Assembly: GCA_037893245.1 (NCBI GenBank) | Contig: JBAIAA010000241.1 | Coordinates: 124,001 to 188,000 of the forward strand | DNA from: Crossaster papposus | Lineage: Eukaryota > Echinodermata > Asteroidea > Velatida > Solasteridae | Length of the DNA: 64,000 bases | Reading direction: 5' to 3' | Part shown: in pieces, positions 3,256-37,478 of the stretch | How the letters are laid out: every line of letters starts with the position of its first letter | Position numbering within the stretch: the first letter of the stretch is position 1 | Position numbers and translations under genes: made by a program | The notes under the pieces: model-generated | What the model was told of the DNA's origin: nothing | Database searches by the model: none | What the model saw: only the letters and a program-made list of their open reading frames with translations

Positions 3256-4005
3256 AACTTATATTATTATTATATGCAGAAAATAACTTCATTTCTATAT
3301 GCCCTGCAGTGGACAGGTTAATTGGTTTATGCACTGAAGGGGTCACCCTGGTGTGCACTGCTGTGTTCTGCCTCACTGAGTTGTTCAGGTATGATGTACT
3401 CAGCACAAGCTTACCTGATAAACATATGTGCTGGCTAAAACCACTTGTCTGGTGGGCACGACAGGGCAGGTTGTCTAAAAGCCAACCTGGTCTTATTTTT
3501 TTGGGGTTTATCTGAAATTCCTACTACATGTATGAGGCTTTAAATTAGAAATGTTTTATATAAAGTAGTATTTTGAGTGAAGTGTGTATTCCACACTGAC
3601 AGTTTTGACATGTTCTGAATTTAACACGAAGGCTGTAATTAACAGAACGGGGTATGTCTGGAAAATGTACTGTCCAACCTAATAAGAGTTTAGACTGATT
3701 TATATTTAAATCTTGGCTGTGTAAATATTGTAAGTATTTATGAATTCAAATGTTTTTTAAATATTCAATAAATTTGGGAATATTTTTTAACTAAAGAATC
3801 TTATGTGATTTTATTTCTCTTCTTGCCTCCGGTATGGGTGAAAATTTAATTCCGGCATAATCTCACAAATCTAATTCCCTAAGTGTGCCAAGCTAAATGC
3901 TCTACGATATAGAGGAATTATCATCCTCTCCATTAGTATGGCGGAGGAAACCCCTCTATTATATATATAAAAAATGTTAACATTATATCATTGTATCGTT
4001 GCAGA
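3256..4005 (+). other. Non-coding stretch upstream of the transposon-type ORF
   Basis: No protein, RNA gene or inverted repeat could be supported here. An AATAAA lies at about 3,767. A polypyrimidine-poor but plausible splice acceptor (TTGTATCGTTGCAG) ends at about 4,005, just before the next ORF, so part of this stretch may be an intron or 5' UTR of the ORF at 4,025. Confidence 0.35.
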
Positions 4006-4024
4006 TTCAGAAGACAGTTCCACC

Positions 4025-5514
4025 ATGTCCAAGAGCTTCAGACTAGCTGATGTTGAGCGAACTTCACCATCAACATCACAGCACCTCACCACAACTGACT
4101 GGAAGTTATGCCTTATATGTCAAGAGGACAAGACGGAGACACTGACCAAACCTGACCAATCAAAGAGAAAAAACATTGGGAGTGGGTACTGTTCACTCGC
4201 AGAGAACTTGGTCAAATTCAGTGAACTTGGAGAGCTTCCAGGATCATTTCACCTGGAAAGACTCAATGATGGTCATAGCATTGAAGCTGCGATGGTTGCA
4301 CACGGTGCAAAATATTATCAGACATGCAGGCTACAGTACAACAACACCAAACTGCAGAGAGCACAAAAGAAAGCACTCGAGAAAGAATGTGAGAGCGATA
4401 AGGAACAAGCTGTATGGAAACGCACCAGGTTACATTCACGCTCATCGAGTACAGAGAAGAAGGTCCCAGAAAATTGTTTCTTCTGTGAACAACCTGCTGG
4501 GGCTGACAGTCGTCGGAAAGCTGCAACATTCCAAATGGACAAACGGGTGCGTGCCTGTGCAACCCTTCTTGGTGATACAGAACTGCTGGGCCGTCTCAGT
4601 GGTGGGGACATGATAGCGTTGGACGCCCAGTATCACCCACGGTGCTTGATAGGACTTTACAATCGCACAAGAAAGGCCCAGTCAACAGGATCACAGGACA
4701 CAAAACAAGAGCGAGCAATGTCGGCAGTTGTCTTCGCTGAACTCGTCCTGTACATTGAAGAAACCAGACAAGATGAGGAGACGGCAACAGTATTCAGATT
4801 GGCTGACCTTGTCCATCTCTATCAGTCCAGAATGGAACAGCTAGGAGTCCAGCTCGACACGAGAGTCCACTCCACACGACTGAAACAGAGACTGTTGGCT
4901 CAGTTTTCTGACATGCGGGCACACACCAAGGGGAGAGACATCCTGATGGCATTTGAAGAAGATGTCGGTGCTGCTCTTGCCAAAGCCTGCGAGCTGGACA
5001 GTGATAGTGATGCAGTCCATCTTGCCCATGCTGCACAGATTGTTCACCGTCACATGTTTGGAGAAGCCAAGCCCTTCCCTGAAGTATGTCAAGAAGAATC
5101 TGTGCCACCGTTGCTGCTTGCCCTAGTCAGTATGATCCTAGAGGAACCCAGCATCAAGGAACAGATGGCAGACACTAACCCTGCAGCAATTGCCACAGCT
5201 CAGATACTGAAGTTCAACAGCATCAAACACAAGCGAACACGTGGCACCACATCATCCACCAGTGTCAGGCACAGTGTTGCACAGGAGACCCCACTTCCAA
5301 TATACATAGGGGTGATGCTGCATGCTCCGCTCAGAAAACGTGTTCAGAAAACACAGATGGTGTTCTCTTCAATCCCGATTGACCAGGCACATGGGCAGAA
5401 TAATGCCTGCATCAAAGGAGACGGTGGAGCAGTAATTGGGCTCACTGACAACCCTAGTGCCCTACGTGCTACGTCGCTGGTTCCCGTGCTCAGGAGATGG
5501 TGGTTGACTTTGAG
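4025..5514 (+). CDS. Large uncharacterised transposon-type protein, N-terminal part, fused to MULE
   Basis: The chosen start is ATG 4,025 (TTCCACCATGTCC), just after a likely acceptor; the same frame is open from 3,974. About 480 codons run without a stop. Features in order: a Cys-rich module (CLICQEDKTE near 4,110, then YCSLAENLVKF and YQTCRLQY); a second module (CFFCEQPAG near 4,480, then YHPRCLIGLYNR near 4,635); a long helical region; and IPIDQAHGQNNACIKGDGG near 5,380 followed by GLTDNPSALR. From general knowledge, this last motif marks large, poorly described proteins common in invertebrate genomes and thought to be mobile-element derived. After a frameshift near 5,478 the product continues as VAGSRAQEMVVDFE and passes into MULE sequence at about 5,506-5,514. 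The two Cys-rich modules are probably zinc binding. The biochemical role is unknown. Confidence 0.7.
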
Positions 5515-7480
5515 GTCGGGATGTGGTCGGCCATTCGACGAGTCTTTCCTGCGGTCAACGTCCGGGGATGCCTATTCCACTGGAATCAAGCTGTTTGGCG
5601 GCAGTGTCAAAATCTTGGACTAGTCGTCCCCTTCACCAATGATGTATCTGTGCGGCAGTACATAAAGAAACTGATGGCTCTACCCTAAGCTTCCTCCCTG
5701 AAGAGCACATTCCGAGAGCTTTCTACAAGTTGCAAGAGCGAGCTACTTCACCTGCCCTCAGCGAGCTACTTCACCTGCCCTCATCGAGCTGTGCAACTAC
5801 ATTGAGAACACGTGGATCATCAGCACCAAGTGGCAGCCTTCAAGTTGGTCGGCCTCAGTGTTGTAGTCGAGTCACCTATGTCGAGTCCGAGTCCCGAGTC
5901 ACTTGGTCCGAGTCCCGAGTCACTCGGTCCGAGTCCGAGTCCGAGTCACTTAAAAAAACACTTCAACCAGTTCACTTAGATGACTGGATCACTATTGATT
6001 GCAAATTATGTCGTAAAATAAGAATTGAAAATGACAAAATAAAACACATTTAATTTAAACAAAGTTCTGTGCCTGCAGTTAACATTTTATTTTACCAATA
6101 CTCCTTGCCCCTTCTCCAGAATATCTTTTATTTATTTATTTTCGTCAAAATAACAAATTATATACTGATTTAGTTATTTCAGAAAGGCAGGTAGCCAACA
6201 AGTTTTATATTTTAGAGAAACAAATAAAGAATGTTATGTAAATCTGTCTGTCATGTTTAATCATGGAGATAGGTTTAATTAAGTTACCGTGCACCCATGA
6301 GTGATAATGGTGGTACATGATGTCAGACTCAGATTTGGAAGTTTCAGAATTTGTTTTAAAGTTGGTGTAACCAAAAGAAACAATACGAGGAACGACAGAT
6401 GCCATGGTTCAAAAAATTGTTGTAGCGACTAGCGATCCCGTGACGTGATCAAGCGTGTCCGGTTGATATGGTTGCGTGTGTCGACATGTGTGAAAACTGG
6501 GGCAAACAACCCACAGCCATCTCAGGCGGTGTTTTACAGTACCAGACATGCCAGACTTCGGTCAGCTTCGGTTGCGTCTATGGCTAGATCAGCGTGTAAG
6601 ACGCCTATGTTTTAACATTAAAAAGAGGTAGCGATATAGCCGCAGCCGTCATTCGGATTCCGGAGACGAATTCCTATTTCCCTGGTAATATGCATCAAGC
6701 AGTGGCTATGGTGTTAAGGTTGACAGAATACCAGCGTTAATATTGGTGTCGTGCACAATAATGCTTTTACATAAATATATCCCAGTGTTATTATGCGTAT
6801 TGAACATACAATACACATACTGTACATGTACATGCGCTGTACACTACATGGCCATAGCAACACAGTAATCACGAACACTATTACTTGCAACATCAGTGTT
6901 CTTATTTCGTGTGCTAAACGTAAATTTTCCTCCATGACCATGACGATCGGATCATCGGAATTGTTTTTAATATTTACAAAAAACTAAACAAGGTATTGTT
7001 GGTGAAAATACGTGACTCGAGTCACGAGTCCTCGAGGTCAAGTCCGAGTCATGGTAGTCGAGTCCGAGTCCGAGTCTTTTGCCGACGTGACTCGAGTCGA
7101 GTCCGAGTCATCAAAATTGTGACTCGAGACGGACTCGAGTCCGAGTCCTTGACTCGAGTCATACAACTCTGGACTCGGCCTTCATGCAGAGTACGCGCAC
7201 CAACAATGATGTGGAGGGCTGGCATCGTCGCATCAACTGGAAGGCTGGCCGCCATGGCCTTCAGTTTTACAAGCTGATCAACCTGCTGCACCAAGAGGCA
7301 ACTTTGGTAAACATTCAAGTTAAACTCATCAAGCATGCCAAGCTGTGTCGGTACCAGCGCAAACAATACCGTCAAGCTCAAGGCAAGGCGTTCAAGCTGT
7401 GGGACAACTACAAGGCAGGGCAGCTGACGACGTCTGGTCTTCTAGCTGCATGCAGTCACCTCATCGGTCCATCCATGTAA
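5506..7480 (+). pseudogene. MULE transposase C-terminal half, split by an insertion
   Basis: Mutator-like (MULE) transposases cut and join DNA with a DDE-type catalytic core. Visible are VVDFEVGMWSAI (second catalytic Asp within DFE), then the C-x2-H block GCLFHWNQAVWR near 5,555 and MALP near 5,680. A frameshift after 5,685 leads to LPEEHIPRAFYKLQ and ELCNYIENTWI. The frame is then broken at 5,855 by a 1.3 kb insertion and resumes at about 7,181 with NNDVEGWHRRIN (C-terminal catalytic Glu region) and FYKLINLLHQEATL. It ends at TAA 7,478-7,480. Joining across the insertion restores a sensible reading through the target codons. The half containing the first catalytic Asp is absent, so this copy is inactive. 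It lies in line with the upstream ORF, forming a chimera. Two histone-type stem-loops follow the stop. Confidence 0.8.
5856..7171. mobile_element. hAT-like non-autonomous element with GACTCGAGTC repeats
   Basis: The left end reads CAGTGTTGTAGTCGAGTCAC and the reverse complement of the right end reads CAGAGTTGTATGACTCGAG, a CAG-type inverted repeat as in hAT transposons. Flanks are GTCGGCCT (5,848-5,855) and CTCGGCCT (7,174-7,181): an eight-base duplication with one mismatch and two extra bases at the right junction. Both terminal zones (5,865-5,950 and 7,010-7,165) are packed with GTCCGAGTC and GACTCGAGTC words. The middle holds no transposase. It interrupts the MULE coding frame. Confidence 0.7.
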
Positions 7481-7509
7481 CCAGGCCAAGACAACCAAGC
7501 AACACCAAC

Positions 7510-7525
7510 GGCTCTTTTCAGAGCC
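7510..7525 (+). promoter_or_regulatory. Histone-type 3' stem-loop, copy 1
   Basis: GGCTCTTTTCAGAGCC is a perfect six-base-pair stem with the loop TTTC, preceded by CCAAC and followed by ACACA. This matches the metazoan replication-dependent histone mRNA 3' stem-loop that binds SLBP. It lies 30 bases after the MULE-type stop codon. No histone ORF was found nearby. Confidence 0.8.
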
Positions 7526-7543
7526 ACACAACCAAACACAAAC

Positions 7544-7580
7544 GGCTCTTTTCAGAGCCACACATGTTCCAAAAAGAGAT
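7544..7580 (+). promoter_or_regulatory. Histone-type 3' stem-loop, copy 2, with purine-rich downstream element
   Basis: The stem-loop GGCTCTTTTCAGAGCC recurs at 7,544-7,559, 34 bases after the first and inside a 34-base tandem unit. A purine-rich AAAAAGAGAT at 7,571-7,580 lies about 12 bases downstream, where the U7 snRNP-binding histone downstream element would be expected. Together they make a complete-looking histone pre-mRNA processing site behind a transposase reading frame. Confidence 0.75.
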
Positions 7581-7740
7581 TGAATCCTGCATTTAATAAA
7601 AAAATAACAGCAGCTATACCCACTCCCCCCTCCCCCAATTATTAAGAATAAAGGATAACAAATACAAAATCACCTACCCTAAACAAATACATTTAAAAAA
7701 AAGGTTCAAAAACGGACCTCATTTTTGACCCCAAAAAAAT

Positions 7741-8402: not shown

Positions 8403-8622
8403 TACGAGTTGACTTAACTGAAGGTACGAGTTGACTTAACTGAAGGTACGAGTTGACTTAACTGAAGGTACGAGTTGACTTAACTGAAGGTACGAGTTGA
8501 CTTAACTGAAGGTACGAGTTGACTTAACTGAAGGTACGAGTTGACTTAACTGAAGGTACGAGTTGACTTAACTGAAGGTACGAGTTGACTTAACTGAAGG
8601 TACGAGTTGACTTAACTGAAGG
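8403..8622. repeat. Minisatellite, 22 bp unit x10
   Basis: Ten uninterrupted, essentially identical units built from TACGAGTTGACT followed by TAACTGAAGG. It abuts the 16 bp array that begins at 8,623 and shares the first eleven bases of its unit. Confidence 0.95.
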
Positions 8623-9175
8623 TACGAGTTGACCAAGGTACGAGTTGACCAAGGTACGAGTTGACCAAGGTACGAGTTGACCAAGGTACGAGTTGACCAA
8701 GGTACGAGTTGACCAAGGTACGAGTTGACCAAGGTACGAGTTGACCAAGGTACGAGTTGACAAGGTACGAGTTGACCAAGGTACGAGTTGACAAGGTACG
8801 AGTTGACCAAGGTACGAGTTGACCAAGGTACGAGTTGACCAAGGTACGAGTTGACCAAGGTACGAGTTGACCAAGGTACGAGTTGACCAAGGTACGAGTT
8901 GACCAAGGTACGAGTTGACCAAGGTACGAGTTGACCAAGGTACGAGTTGACCAAGGTACGAGTTGACCAAGGTACGAGTTGACCAAGGTACGAGTTGACC
9001 AAGGTACGAGTTGACCAAGGTACGAGTTGACCAAGGTACGAGTTGACCAAGGTACGAGTTGACCAAGGTACGAGTTGACCAAGGTACGAGTTGACCAAGG
9101 TACGAGTTGACCAAGGTACGAGTTGACCAAGGTACGAGTTGACCAAGGTACGAGTTGACCAAGGTACGAGTTGAC
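8623..9175. repeat. Minisatellite, 16 bp unit x~34
   Basis: About 34 copies of TACGAGTTGACCAAGG, nearly perfect apart from two 15 bp units near 8,751-8,800. All three minus-strand frames stay open only because 16 is not divisible by three and the unit has no stop there; the resulting repeated peptides are artefacts. The unit is the 22 bp unit with its middle replaced, so one array probably grew out of the other. Confidence 0.95.
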
Positions 9176-9344
9176 TCGAAAGCGGTGAACTAGATCAGCA
9201 ATTGGCCTTGTTGTCGATCTAACCATAGAAAGAAACCTAGTCTTGACTATGGTCTAACGACGTATACTACGCCAATTAAAACTAGTAGTAAGACGGCTCG
9301 GCATCTCAGACACACTCATTGCTATGTTCTCATGGTAGCCAACT
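9176..9344. other. Unique spacer between minisatellite zones
   Basis: No gene or repeat is seen here. It separates the 16 bp array from the ACTCGGCACC-bearing element. Confidence 0.5.
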
Positions 9345-23743: not shown

Positions 23744-25976
23744 GGGCCAATTCCACCGTTACGGACGTTACATACAGAGCGAGTAGCATTTATTTGAAAA
23801 ACAAAGTAACATACTTATAGTCAAAGCAGATTTTACTTAGTTTGCACATTGTTACTTTAGGACCTACGGTAGTGTACAACATGACATGGTGGAATTGCAC
23901 TTGGCTTGATTTATTTATTAAATACAACAACTGCAAACGAGCGTTACGGATGTTACGTGTTCTGACGAGGCTTTTCAACCTCTGTAACATATTGATAAAA
24001 CTCTGTGAAGTTTTTGGTCAGAGCTTTTTGAAATAATTATATAGTAGTAGATGTCACTTCCCTCTGTACAAACATAATTGACAATTTAGAAAAAGTCATT
24101 CTGATAATGGAGAAAAAGGAAGTTTTTGCCGTTACGGACATTACATTTTAGCGTTACGGACGTTACATTTAGCGTTACGGATGTTACGGACGTGGGCAAA
24201 AACTTAAAGAATCATTATTTTCTCAGCTTTAATTTGTTTTCTTCATCTTTTTAATATTTAAGATAAGCCTTTCAAACATGTCAGAAATGATATTTGACCC
24301 TAAAAATGCAAGGTAATCTTACTGACCTCACTAAAAGGACCATTAACCTGGTTTAGCGTTGAAAGGCTTTTTGAGGCGTTTTAATCATTAAGAAAACTTA
24401 CCAATTTTGTTTAGGGCAAACAATTGGGAATCACATTAAAACATGTAAAATAGGAAAAATATCATGCATGTCTGCATTATGGAATCAATAATAACTATAA
24501 CATCAATCAGGGGTGTTCACTTAAATAATATTGTTCATTTAAACTACATTATGTAAACACTGAACAATCGTAAAAACTGAACGAACTGTCCATTTTCAAT
24601 GAGCCTCCATGTAGAATTGGACCTGAAATGTCTATGATTTTGAAGAGGCATTGCCAAAAACAAAAAGGGAATCTTTAGGTAATTCCATTCTAGCCTTGCT
24701 GACATCAAAGTCAAAGAAAATTCTGCTTCCTACATGTAGCATAACAATTTTGGGTTGCTCAAATTTTGCAACAACATCCTCCTTTGGGTGGCTGAAGATG
24801 TGTTCCTCCCCGGCTACCTCTATGGCTTGTCCTACATGGTGAAGCATAAAGATCTGTTTAAACAGATCTTTATGCTTCACCATGTGGGACAAGCCACAGA
24901 GGTCTTCCTTCTGAGAGTCAATCTGTAAAACCAAGCCCAACAAAACAGAGTTTTACCAACATGCTACCGGTACCGAGATTAAAAAAACTTGTTCATGCTG
25001 CAGTACATGTATACACATTTAGAACATTTCCCTAATAATCAGGATTTTTAGAAACGGTTATAGTTGATTTGTTGCAACATACTAAAAATGGCAAATTTTT
25101 TTAAGAATAAATTGATGAAAACAATTAAAATCATTAACCTTTTTGTGGGCTTGTACTGACATGTACATATATACGTACACATACTGCAATCTCAGCTGCC
25201 TGCTACTATACTGCCTGCCTAGTACACATTGGCCTAATTCCCGCCACAAGCCATAAAATTGATACAATTTATATACGACCTACATTGTAATTCTGTGTGC
25301 ATGAGGTTTTTAAATTTTTAAAATAGGGATGTGTAATTATTACCATACCTGTACATACATGTACTTGTGCATTGTAAAATGTGTAACGTCCGTAACGTAA
25401 CGTCCGTAACAACATTTTGTAACGTCCTAACACTCGTTAGCATAGTTCTAATTATTGGATTTTCAAGTTTCATACTGGATAAAGTTACCCATCAAAAACT
25501 AGCTTTAAATATGTAGTAAAGAAAAAAAATCTCCATTGGATTATATTTTAGAGGAAAAAGATAACCAAAATGTTACGGACGTTACATGTCCCGTGGAAAG
25601 AAAAAAACGTAAAATACATTAATGTGCAGCACCCTTAAGCACTTGAGTGGAAAACACTTTTTTTTCTCCAATTTCTTAGAGAAGGTATCCTAAGTGCTAT
25701 TTTGCATAATTTTTTTATTTTTTTTTAAGTTCAAGGCTTAGATTTTTGAAAGATTAAACAAATATTGCTATTTTTGCAATGTTTTTGAAAATTTGACGTT
25801 TTATTATGCGTACATATTCAAATTAGTATTCAAATATTAAATGAACAAATTTTGGTGATTTCAATGCATTTTCATATAAGGTTTAGGTATCAATCTTACC
25901 TGTAAAAGTGAAAAAAGTTTTAAAAGTTCTATTTGAAATTGTTTGGGTCATGTCAACTTTCGCGTGTAATTGGCCA
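23744..25976. mobile_element. 2.2 kb element family B with repeated CGTTACGGACGTTAC
   Basis: Ends GGGCCAATTCCAC and GTGTAATTGGCCA form an imperfect inverted repeat flanked by TTGTATT on both sides (23,737-23,743 and 25,977-25,983). Related copies at 32,750 and 51,085 have the uninterrupted site TTGTATGG. Around ten CGTTACGGACGTTAC-like words in both orientations sit near 23,757, 23,943, 24,129-24,195, 25,383-25,410 and 25,570. An ORF-like segment lies at 24,632-24,943. Confidence 0.75.
24632..24943 (-). pseudogene. Protein-like segment inside element B
   Basis: A 103-codon minus-strand frame contains EVAGEEHIFSHPKEDVVAKF and EQPKIVMLHVGSRIFFDFDV, which reads like ordinary globular protein. 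It is preceded by an abrupt DNA palindrome (24,816-24,903) that mirrors the reading so that both strands give MVKHKDLFKQIFMLHHVGQ. Possibly a captured gene fragment or a transposase scrap. Not recognised. Confidence 0.4.
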
Positions 25977-36510: not shown

Positions 36511-37478
36511 GGGTCTTTCCATAAATAAGGGGGCCAAAGCGTGACATGGTGTTATTTCTCAAAATGTAATTTACTTTCTATATTCTTTGCATGTTCGTAT
36601 GGTGGGGATAGCTCATACGTTTAATGTATAACTTCAATTTCTCGAACCAGATTTTTTGTTTTCATATACGATCCAAAACTATCCATCACACTGTAATGGA
36701 GACACCGGTGTCTCAGTTACAGTGTGAAGTGTGAAACTTGTGACTTGTTTTGCCATAAATTAGTAGGTTTTCATTGAAAATTTAAATTTCAAAGGGTAAT
36801 ATGTAAACATCATTGGTATACTGTAATTCAGCTATTTTCAATGAAAACCTTCAAACGTTGGCCAAGCAGTAAAGGCCGACAGTTTTACGCGTAACCGTGA
36901 CACTGGTGTCTTTGTTACACCGTGACTCAAAAAGTCCTGTCTCTCTTATTATGCATCATAAATGTCTGAATCGAGCAAAGTGCATAGTAATACATGCTAC
37001 ATGTACATGTATGATAGATTCAGACATTTATGATGCATAATAAGAGAGACAGGACTTTTTGAGTCACGGTGTAACAAAGACACCAGTGTCACGGTTACGC
37101 GTAAAACTGTCGGCCTTTGCTGCTTGGCCAACGTTTGAAGGTTTTCATTGAAAATAGCTGAATTACAGTATACCAATGATGTTTACATATTACCCTTTGA
37201 AATTTAAATTTTCAATGAAAACCTACTAATTTATGGCAAAACAAGTCACAAGTTTCACACTTCACACTGTAACTGAGACACCGGTGTCTCCATTACAGTG
37301 TGATGGATAGTTTTGGATCGTATATGAAAACAAAAAATCTGATTCGAGAAATTGAAGTTATACATTAAACGTATGAGCTATCCCCACCATACGAACATGC
37401 AAAGAATATAGAAAGTAAATTACATTTTGAGAAATAACACCATGTCACGCTTTGGCCCCCTTATTTATGGAAAGACCC
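36511..37478. mobile_element. Foldback element family A, copy 2
   Basis: 968 bases with the same GGGTCTTTCCATAAATAAGG ends as 14,336-15,706 and nearly identical arms, meeting at about 36,995 in a TACATGTACATG loop. AAAT flanks both ends (36,507-36,510 and 37,479-37,482), a possible short target duplication. It lacks the nested insert of copy 1. The GACACCGGTGTCTC and GGTTACGCG words are kept. Confidence 0.85.

Follow-up and report, generated by a model that had tools for sequence, protein, structure and literature searches.

Replication-dependent histone mRNAs carry near their 3' end a hairpin with a 6-bp stem and a 4-nt loop, of consensus GGYYYU...ARRRCC, and the SLBP consensus calls for pyrimidines in the 5' arm and purines in the 3' arm at the variable stem pairs. 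To our knowledge, stem-loop ends of this type are held to be confined, among animal mRNAs, to replication-dependent histone genes. One published account (PMC7026596) identifies the U7-pairing purine core as AAAGAG and reports that, in mammalian extracts, cleavage stays at a fixed distance from the U7-pairing element. The transposon clade described here, from Crossaster papposus, exhibits similarities to these histone ends (RF00032), including the hairpin and loop, an ACCAAA-type upstream flank, the AAAGAG core, a 12–14 nt spacing between hairpin and core and a place just after the stop codon, but there are also differences. The gene is a transposase, up to three hairpins stand in tandem, two subfamilies are interrupted by an intron-like sequence, and one form of the hairpin, GGTCC, is absent from the four host core histone genes read.

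With Mutator-like (MULE) transposons the clade shares the PF10551 transposase domain, terminal inverted repeats and 8-bp target duplications; it differs in having a histone-type 3' end on its transposase gene, which none of the 12 copies read of four other MULE lineages in this genome (J, seven; K, two; M, two; N, one) possesses. Pack-MULEs are MULEs that capture host gene fragments, and host-like sequence inside a MULE is common to them and to the present elements, whereas here it is a regulatory 3' end, on the transposase gene itself, common to eight subfamilies. Sea urchin TU, or foldback-type, elements have minisatellite terminal repeats, and inverted ends built of short tandem repeats are found here as well; a search of the open PMC literature found no paper on TU elements. 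Among the open PMC papers listed on the histone stem-loop, SLBP or U7 in connection with transposable elements or non-histone genes, no title or abstract opening reports a transposon with a histone-type 3' end, and no relative of the MULE was found in viral and genome contig collections, among which there is no other animal genome.

The window, that is, the whole stretch of 64,000 nt that was analysed (G000:C241:124001-188000 of a 1.02-Gb assembly), contains the following features.

5479–5855, plus strand: middle part of a MULE transposase, frameshifted; 91% DNA identity to the copy on contig C1; PF10551 match, E 9.9e-5, on 5458–5685
5862–7170, limits approximate, no strand: insertion of about 1.3 kb splitting the transposase, with CGAGTC-rich repeats near both sides
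7175–7480, plus strand: C-terminal part of the MULE transposase (NNDVEGWHRRIN...HLIGPSM), stop codon at 7478–7480; 99% identity to the end of the L009 ORF (row L010)
7510–7525, plus strand: first histone-type stem-loop, GGCTCTTTTCAGAGCC, exact; RF00032 28.1 bits, below gathering level
7544–7559, plus strand: second histone-type stem-loop, exact, adjoining the downstream element; RF00032 38.1 bits over 7539–7583
7571–7579, plus strand: purine-rich histone downstream element, AAAAAGAGA, with AAAGAG core at 7573–7578; putative U7 pairing site
7595–7600, plus strand: AATAAA, possible back-up poly(A) signal, read from the sequence
8403–9183, plus strand: 22/16-bp minisatellite of the GGTACGAGTTGACC type ending in GTACGAGTTGACTCGAAAGC, the element's 3' terminal repeat; 3' end at 9183

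The initial annotation of this DNA had reported two perfect stem-loops, and both are indeed exact; they are the window's sole matches even when up to three mismatches are allowed, and each has the 6-bp stem and 4-nt loop of the histone form. Shuffled windows held a mean of 0.30 matches at up to three mismatches, and two or more such inexact matches occurred in 2 of 100 shuffles. In the genome, the exact hairpin GGCTCTTTTCAGAGCC occurs 3022 times and its reversed control pattern 0 times, and for the GGTCC form, GGTCCTTTTCAGGACC, the counts are 192 and 1. A chance origin of the window's stem-loops is ruled out by these shuffles and reversed-pattern controls. The Rfam comparison proposed at the outset gave the expected family: Histone3 (RF00032) reaches 38.1 bits at 7539–7583, against a gathering level of 34 (E 1.4e-7), and is the only Rfam family to attain that level in the window. 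The purine-rich element does follow the second copy at the usual distance, its AAAGAG core lying 13 nt 3' of the stem-loop. The first copy scores 28.1 bits, below that level, and has no downstream element of its own ahead of the second hairpin. The signal does lie just after the stop codon, but the stem-loops start 29 and 63 nt past the TAA of the 98-codon ORF and not 30 and 64 bases as claimed. The AATAAA at 7595–7600 is weak as a poly(A) signal because its surroundings are AT-rich.

The upstream ORF had been called a MULE transposase end, and this assignment is borne out because the C-terminal piece shares 99% identity with the last part of the L009 ORF, an uninterrupted frame that bears PF10551 at 48.6 bits. 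In the window itself, the C-terminal piece has no significant Pfam match, and the PF10551 match on 5458–5685 is weak (23.1 bits, below the 27.6 cut-off). The window copy is a broken member of its family, in which the signal looks intact and the transposase does not: the 5' part is missing, the remainder is frameshifted and split by the insertion, the frames do not join, and neither a 5' end nor a target duplication was found for this copy. Positions 5479–5855 and 7175–7725 match the C1 copy at 91 and 95% DNA identity, respectively, and the 3' region recurs almost unchanged on contig C783. A different ORF of 549 codons (3974–5623), with no Pfam match, takes over upstream of about 5479 and runs straight into the MULE fragment. 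Elsewhere in the window, long inverted repeats at 36941–37048 and 24819–24900 appear in Rfam as sub-threshold miRNA-like hairpins and are perhaps of MITE type.

A histone pseudogene or other histone gene debris in the window is rejected, as the suggested search for adjacent histone ORFs gave no coding match to H2A, H2B, H3 or H4 in the window or in ten 9.9-kb loci around copies or fragments of the element; this search covered these core histones and matched its positive control, L004. A local accident of the window copy is likewise rejected, since other MULE copies carry the signal. Among the genomic hairpin matches listed, the first lies on C1 and the rest on C9, where those sampled belong to tandemly arrayed histone genes. 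On C1 the hairpin lies in another copy of this MULE, whose uninterrupted frame of 633 codons (585 from the first ATG) comprises a PHD-like N-terminus, below the Pfam cut-off, and a PF10551 match (1.1e-12). Positions 7175–7620 of the window, used as a DNA query, gave at least 44 matches (40 of 395 candidates scored), and a protein search with the transposase gave at least 98 (89 of 421 candidates scored); because only part of the candidates was scored, the family is larger than the copies examined.

The 3' ends that were read are those of protein matches reaching residue 470 or beyond of 476, together with C641, C231 and C568; matches ending short of residue 470 (e.g., C260, C305, C674 and C1040) were left out, as were L016 and L027, 3' fragments with no transposase match, and L082, whose transposase is truncated. 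A fully paired hairpin follows the stop codon in 37 of 43 in-clade 3' ends, spread over eight subfamilies, 34 of them by a scripted stop-anchored count and three (L013, L025 and L030) by inspection. Because the DNA query behind the first copies itself held the stem-loops, ends whose transposase came from the protein search alone were counted separately, and 33 of 38 have the hairpin. These counts are not counts of independent events, because the near-identical L010/L011, L062/L063 and L064/L065 may be duplicates or alternative assemblies. In the six remaining ends the hairpin is not intact: L014, L015 and L039 have decayed, and L022, L050 and L068 have lost the 3' end. L054, counted among the 37, has a mismatch in the hairpin adjoining the element but keeps its other hairpin intact. 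Of 12 clade copies submitted to Rfam, seven (L009, L020, L031, L034, L042, L043 and L067) reach the RF00032 cut-off with 34.6–40.0 bits; below it are L014, which is decayed, as well as L017, L024, L051 and L055, among which are B, G and E copies. The initial annotation had held that its reading would fall if other copies lacked the stem-loops or if these came from a deleted histone cluster at this locus; the genome search found the stem-loop at the same place in other copies, and no core histone coding sequence was present at the loci examined.

The number of hairpins is not the same throughout. Subfamily G (L051–L053, L055, L061, L078 and L079) has one to three, in 47-nt tandem units past the stop codon, and subfamily C (L026, L029, L031, L033, L034 and L039) has more hairpin-like copies 146–258 nt past the stop.

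The signal moves with the element. Three D copies and one A copy are complete elements with the signal inside, flanked by 8-bp target duplications (TATTCGCA, ACACGTCC and GCATAAAC for D; CTCTGGTT for A), which were examined in these four sister copies and the window copy; the ends of the complete copies are inverted minisatellites, which serve as terminal inverted repeats. One pair of copies in each of B, D and F is 99.7%, 99.1% and 99.9% identical, respectively, across the final 225 codons, which indicates that some copies moved, or were duplicated, recently.

An inverted repeat within a mobile element might be conserved for reasons unconnected with mRNA, for example as a DNA site for the transposase, and the position in the transposon's 3' region and the one to three tandem hairpins of G copies would fit such a site. 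This explanation, however, predicts neither a hairpin and loop of SLBP type, nor a histone downstream element at its spacing, nor the place after the stop codon, and we consider it exceedingly improbable.

In a protein tree of 22 sequences, one branch parts the signal-bearing from the signal-free lineages (bootstrap 100, FastTree 1.000). A single gain of the signal is thus likely, although the tree is unrooted and a single loss may account for the same division. Three stems occur, namely GGCTCT/AGAGCC (subfamilies A, D, E, F and I), GGCCCT/AGGGCC (C) and GGTCCT/AGGACC (B and G); where pairs have changed, fully paired variants still have a pyrimidine in the 5' arm and a purine in the 3' arm, in line with the SLBP consensus. 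Changes in the stem are compensatory: in 13 rows, hand-chosen from 22 distinct segments with no decayed copy among them, two of the six stem pairs are altered on both sides, and 98.7% of cells pair. The covariation score, the number of paired cells and the number of both-side-changed cells were each reached by 0 of 500 shuffles, and slid structures give lower scores. Two other measures are not unusual: the count of pairs with both sides altered, which 220 of 500 shuffles reach, and that of further pair types, which 500 of 500 reach.

The signal is also conserved against a much-altered background. Over about 225 codons, silent differences amount to 0.72–0.80 of sites in seven of eight subfamily pairs, which is near saturation, and to 0.61 for B–G, with pN of 0.12–0.29 across the eight pairs; fourfold sites differ at 51 of 77 (A–E), 43 of 63 (A–B), 35 of 57 (A–C) and 44 of 90 (B–G). 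Among eight subfamily representatives, pairwise identity falls from 88% in the hairpin to 72% in the 10 nt upstream of it, 56–65% just beside hairpin and core, and 33–37% in the outer flanks. The AAAGAG core is present in all eight, its 100% identity being by construction as it was the alignment anchor, and single copies (L034 and L045) have a damaged core. The spacing from hairpin to core is 12–14 nt in seven of the eight; in E it is 30 nt, and in each of the two E copies that were folded the inserted spacer stretch forms a separate hairpin.

Could the signal be no more than a passenger, captured from a histone gene, of no use and simply copied along with the element? MULEs do capture pieces of host genes, and several broken copies, the window's among them, retain perfect hairpins. 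Set against this is the persistence of hairpin and core, with paired changes, in spite of near-saturated silent sites in seven of the eight subfamily pairs, and a passenger status is accordingly very unlikely. The same persistence indicates selection on the signal, and the best reading is that a histone-type 3' end was gained by a MULE lineage and is maintained there by selection.

The host's own histone genes have a hairpin and element of the same kind. In the unit read from the C9 array, H4 and H2B have GGCTCT hairpins, H3 has GGCCCT and H2A has GGCTCT/AGGGCC; each of the four is followed by a purine element, with AAAGAG in H4, H2B and H3, and RF00032 scores are 39.6 bits for H4, 37.7 for H2B and 35.4 for H2A, with H3 below the cut-off. 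Both array loci covering the stretch show a U2 snRNA match (182.3 bits) beside the histone genes (L002:191-383 and L004:189-381). The 3' end of MULE subfamily A resembles the host H4 end past the hairpin (AAAAAGAGATTGA.TCC), as judged by eye, and because the likeness extends that far, a host-type histone gene end is the most likely origin of the signal, acquired before the eight subfamilies diverged. The two readings first offered, use of SLBP/U7 processing and capture of a histone gene end, are thus both supported, the one as present use and the other as origin.

Repeated re-acquisition from host histone genes, or gene conversion by them, might also keep the signal alike, and the host H3 hairpin, GGCCCTTTTCAGGGCC, is the same as that of subfamily C. 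However, the flanks in subfamily C are unlike those of H3, none of the four core histone genes read in the one array unit carries the GGTCC form seen in B and G, and the listed part of the 192 GGTCC places includes no tandem array. Such renewal from the host would seem very improbable.

The host has SLBP, whose RNA-binding domain is found on C944 with 46.6 and 37.2 bits (cut-off 27), and the two neighbouring stretches jointly span the profile and so probably belong to one gene. A search with RF00066 gave no host U7 match, but its control was likewise unmatched, so that this is no evidence of a missing U7 gene, and the one genome match to a U7-like pattern is taken as chance, having no clear 3' hairpin and no Rfam U7 match.

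Since the MULE lineage appears to keep its histone-type 3' end under selection, the transposase mRNA is probably processed by SLBP and U7. In the mechanism that we propose, the hairpin nearest the core would be bound by SLBP of the host and the AAAGAG element would be paired to the U7 snRNP; cleavage by CPSF73 between the two would then yield a transposase mRNA that ends in the stem-loop and has no poly(A) tail; transposase would accordingly be made mainly during DNA replication. Both the cleavage and this S-phase limitation are inferred. Overall, we think it quite likely that the window holds the 3' end of a MULE transposase gene with a histone-type signal inside the element and an SLBP/U7-processed mRNA. 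Several features count against this, namely the 30-nt spacing in E, the 6 of 43 copies with no intact hairpin, the B, G and E copies, L014 and the host H3 end that score below the Rfam cut-off, the two covariation measures that are not unusual, the host U7 gene that the searches did not find, and the AATAAA-like motifs that trail the signal in several copies and make polyadenylation possible.

Subfamilies D and F (L020, L021, L032, L036, L037 and L041–L044) have an intron-like GT...AG interruption, at the same codon (AAGAAG/GT), which the A, B, C and E copies examined do not have. This is unlike replication-dependent histone genes and also counts against the proposed processing. Both the interruption and the AATAAA-like motifs, present downstream in several subfamilies, would fit if the hairpin were used on a polyadenylated or mixed mRNA, where SLBP might aid export, translation or turnover and a downstream poly(A) signal would make the end. 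Such an arrangement is unlikely, in our view, as it offers no account of an AAAGAG core kept 12–14 nt off in seven of eight subfamilies while the outer sequence is random. SLBP/U7 processing of the transposase mRNA is therefore the reading that we prefer.

In addition to the MULE clade, a second dispersed repeat carries the same type of signal. The GGTCC matches listed are dispersed, and 16 of 20 sites read belong to a repeat different from the MULE (L086–L094, L096, L098–L103; L104–L109), the remaining four being three of MULE subfamily G and one B-like; the 20 were chosen by the exact GGTCC hairpin and are thus silent on repeat copies that lost it. In the eight repeat copies translated, some of them interrupted, an ORF terminates with LLSFFTRPYQPTRGIKRNRQH or a close variant of it, and about 25 nt past its stop the hairpin begins, followed by a CAAAAGAGATAAA-type element. 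An ATGGCA start follows in 11 of 14 aligned copies, and L103 diverges soon after the element. Three copies were read downstream: in two, C45 (L105) and C31 (L109), a broken reverse transcriptase frame follows, while the third, C18 (L108), departs from the repeat about 190 nt on and continues into unrelated DNA. The motifs LPKIHK, GRPIISGC and VVKPYDKG of the reverse transcriptase frame are of a kind that we take to be Penelope-like; in L105 the frame has no significant Pfam match. Because both the MULE clade and this Penelope-like-linked repeat carry the signal, one might think that unrelated mobile elements share histone 3' processing, with mRNAs that have no poly(A) tail and are made mainly during DNA replication, a suggestion that we put forward tentatively and would not yet call probable. 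If it is true, these mRNAs would be made when new copies of an element are most easily gained.

Finally, it should be noted that the finding, a transposon clade whose histone-type 3' end is conserved and moves with the element, is stronger than was first drawn from the window. The clade provides a natural set of variants for the biochemistry of SLBP and U7, with a GGUCC stem, one to three hairpins, an extra spacer hairpin, and genes with and without an intron-like interruption. If the proposed processing is true, these elements would constitute a natural test of what the histone pathway needs outside histones, and production of the transposase would be tied to DNA replication.
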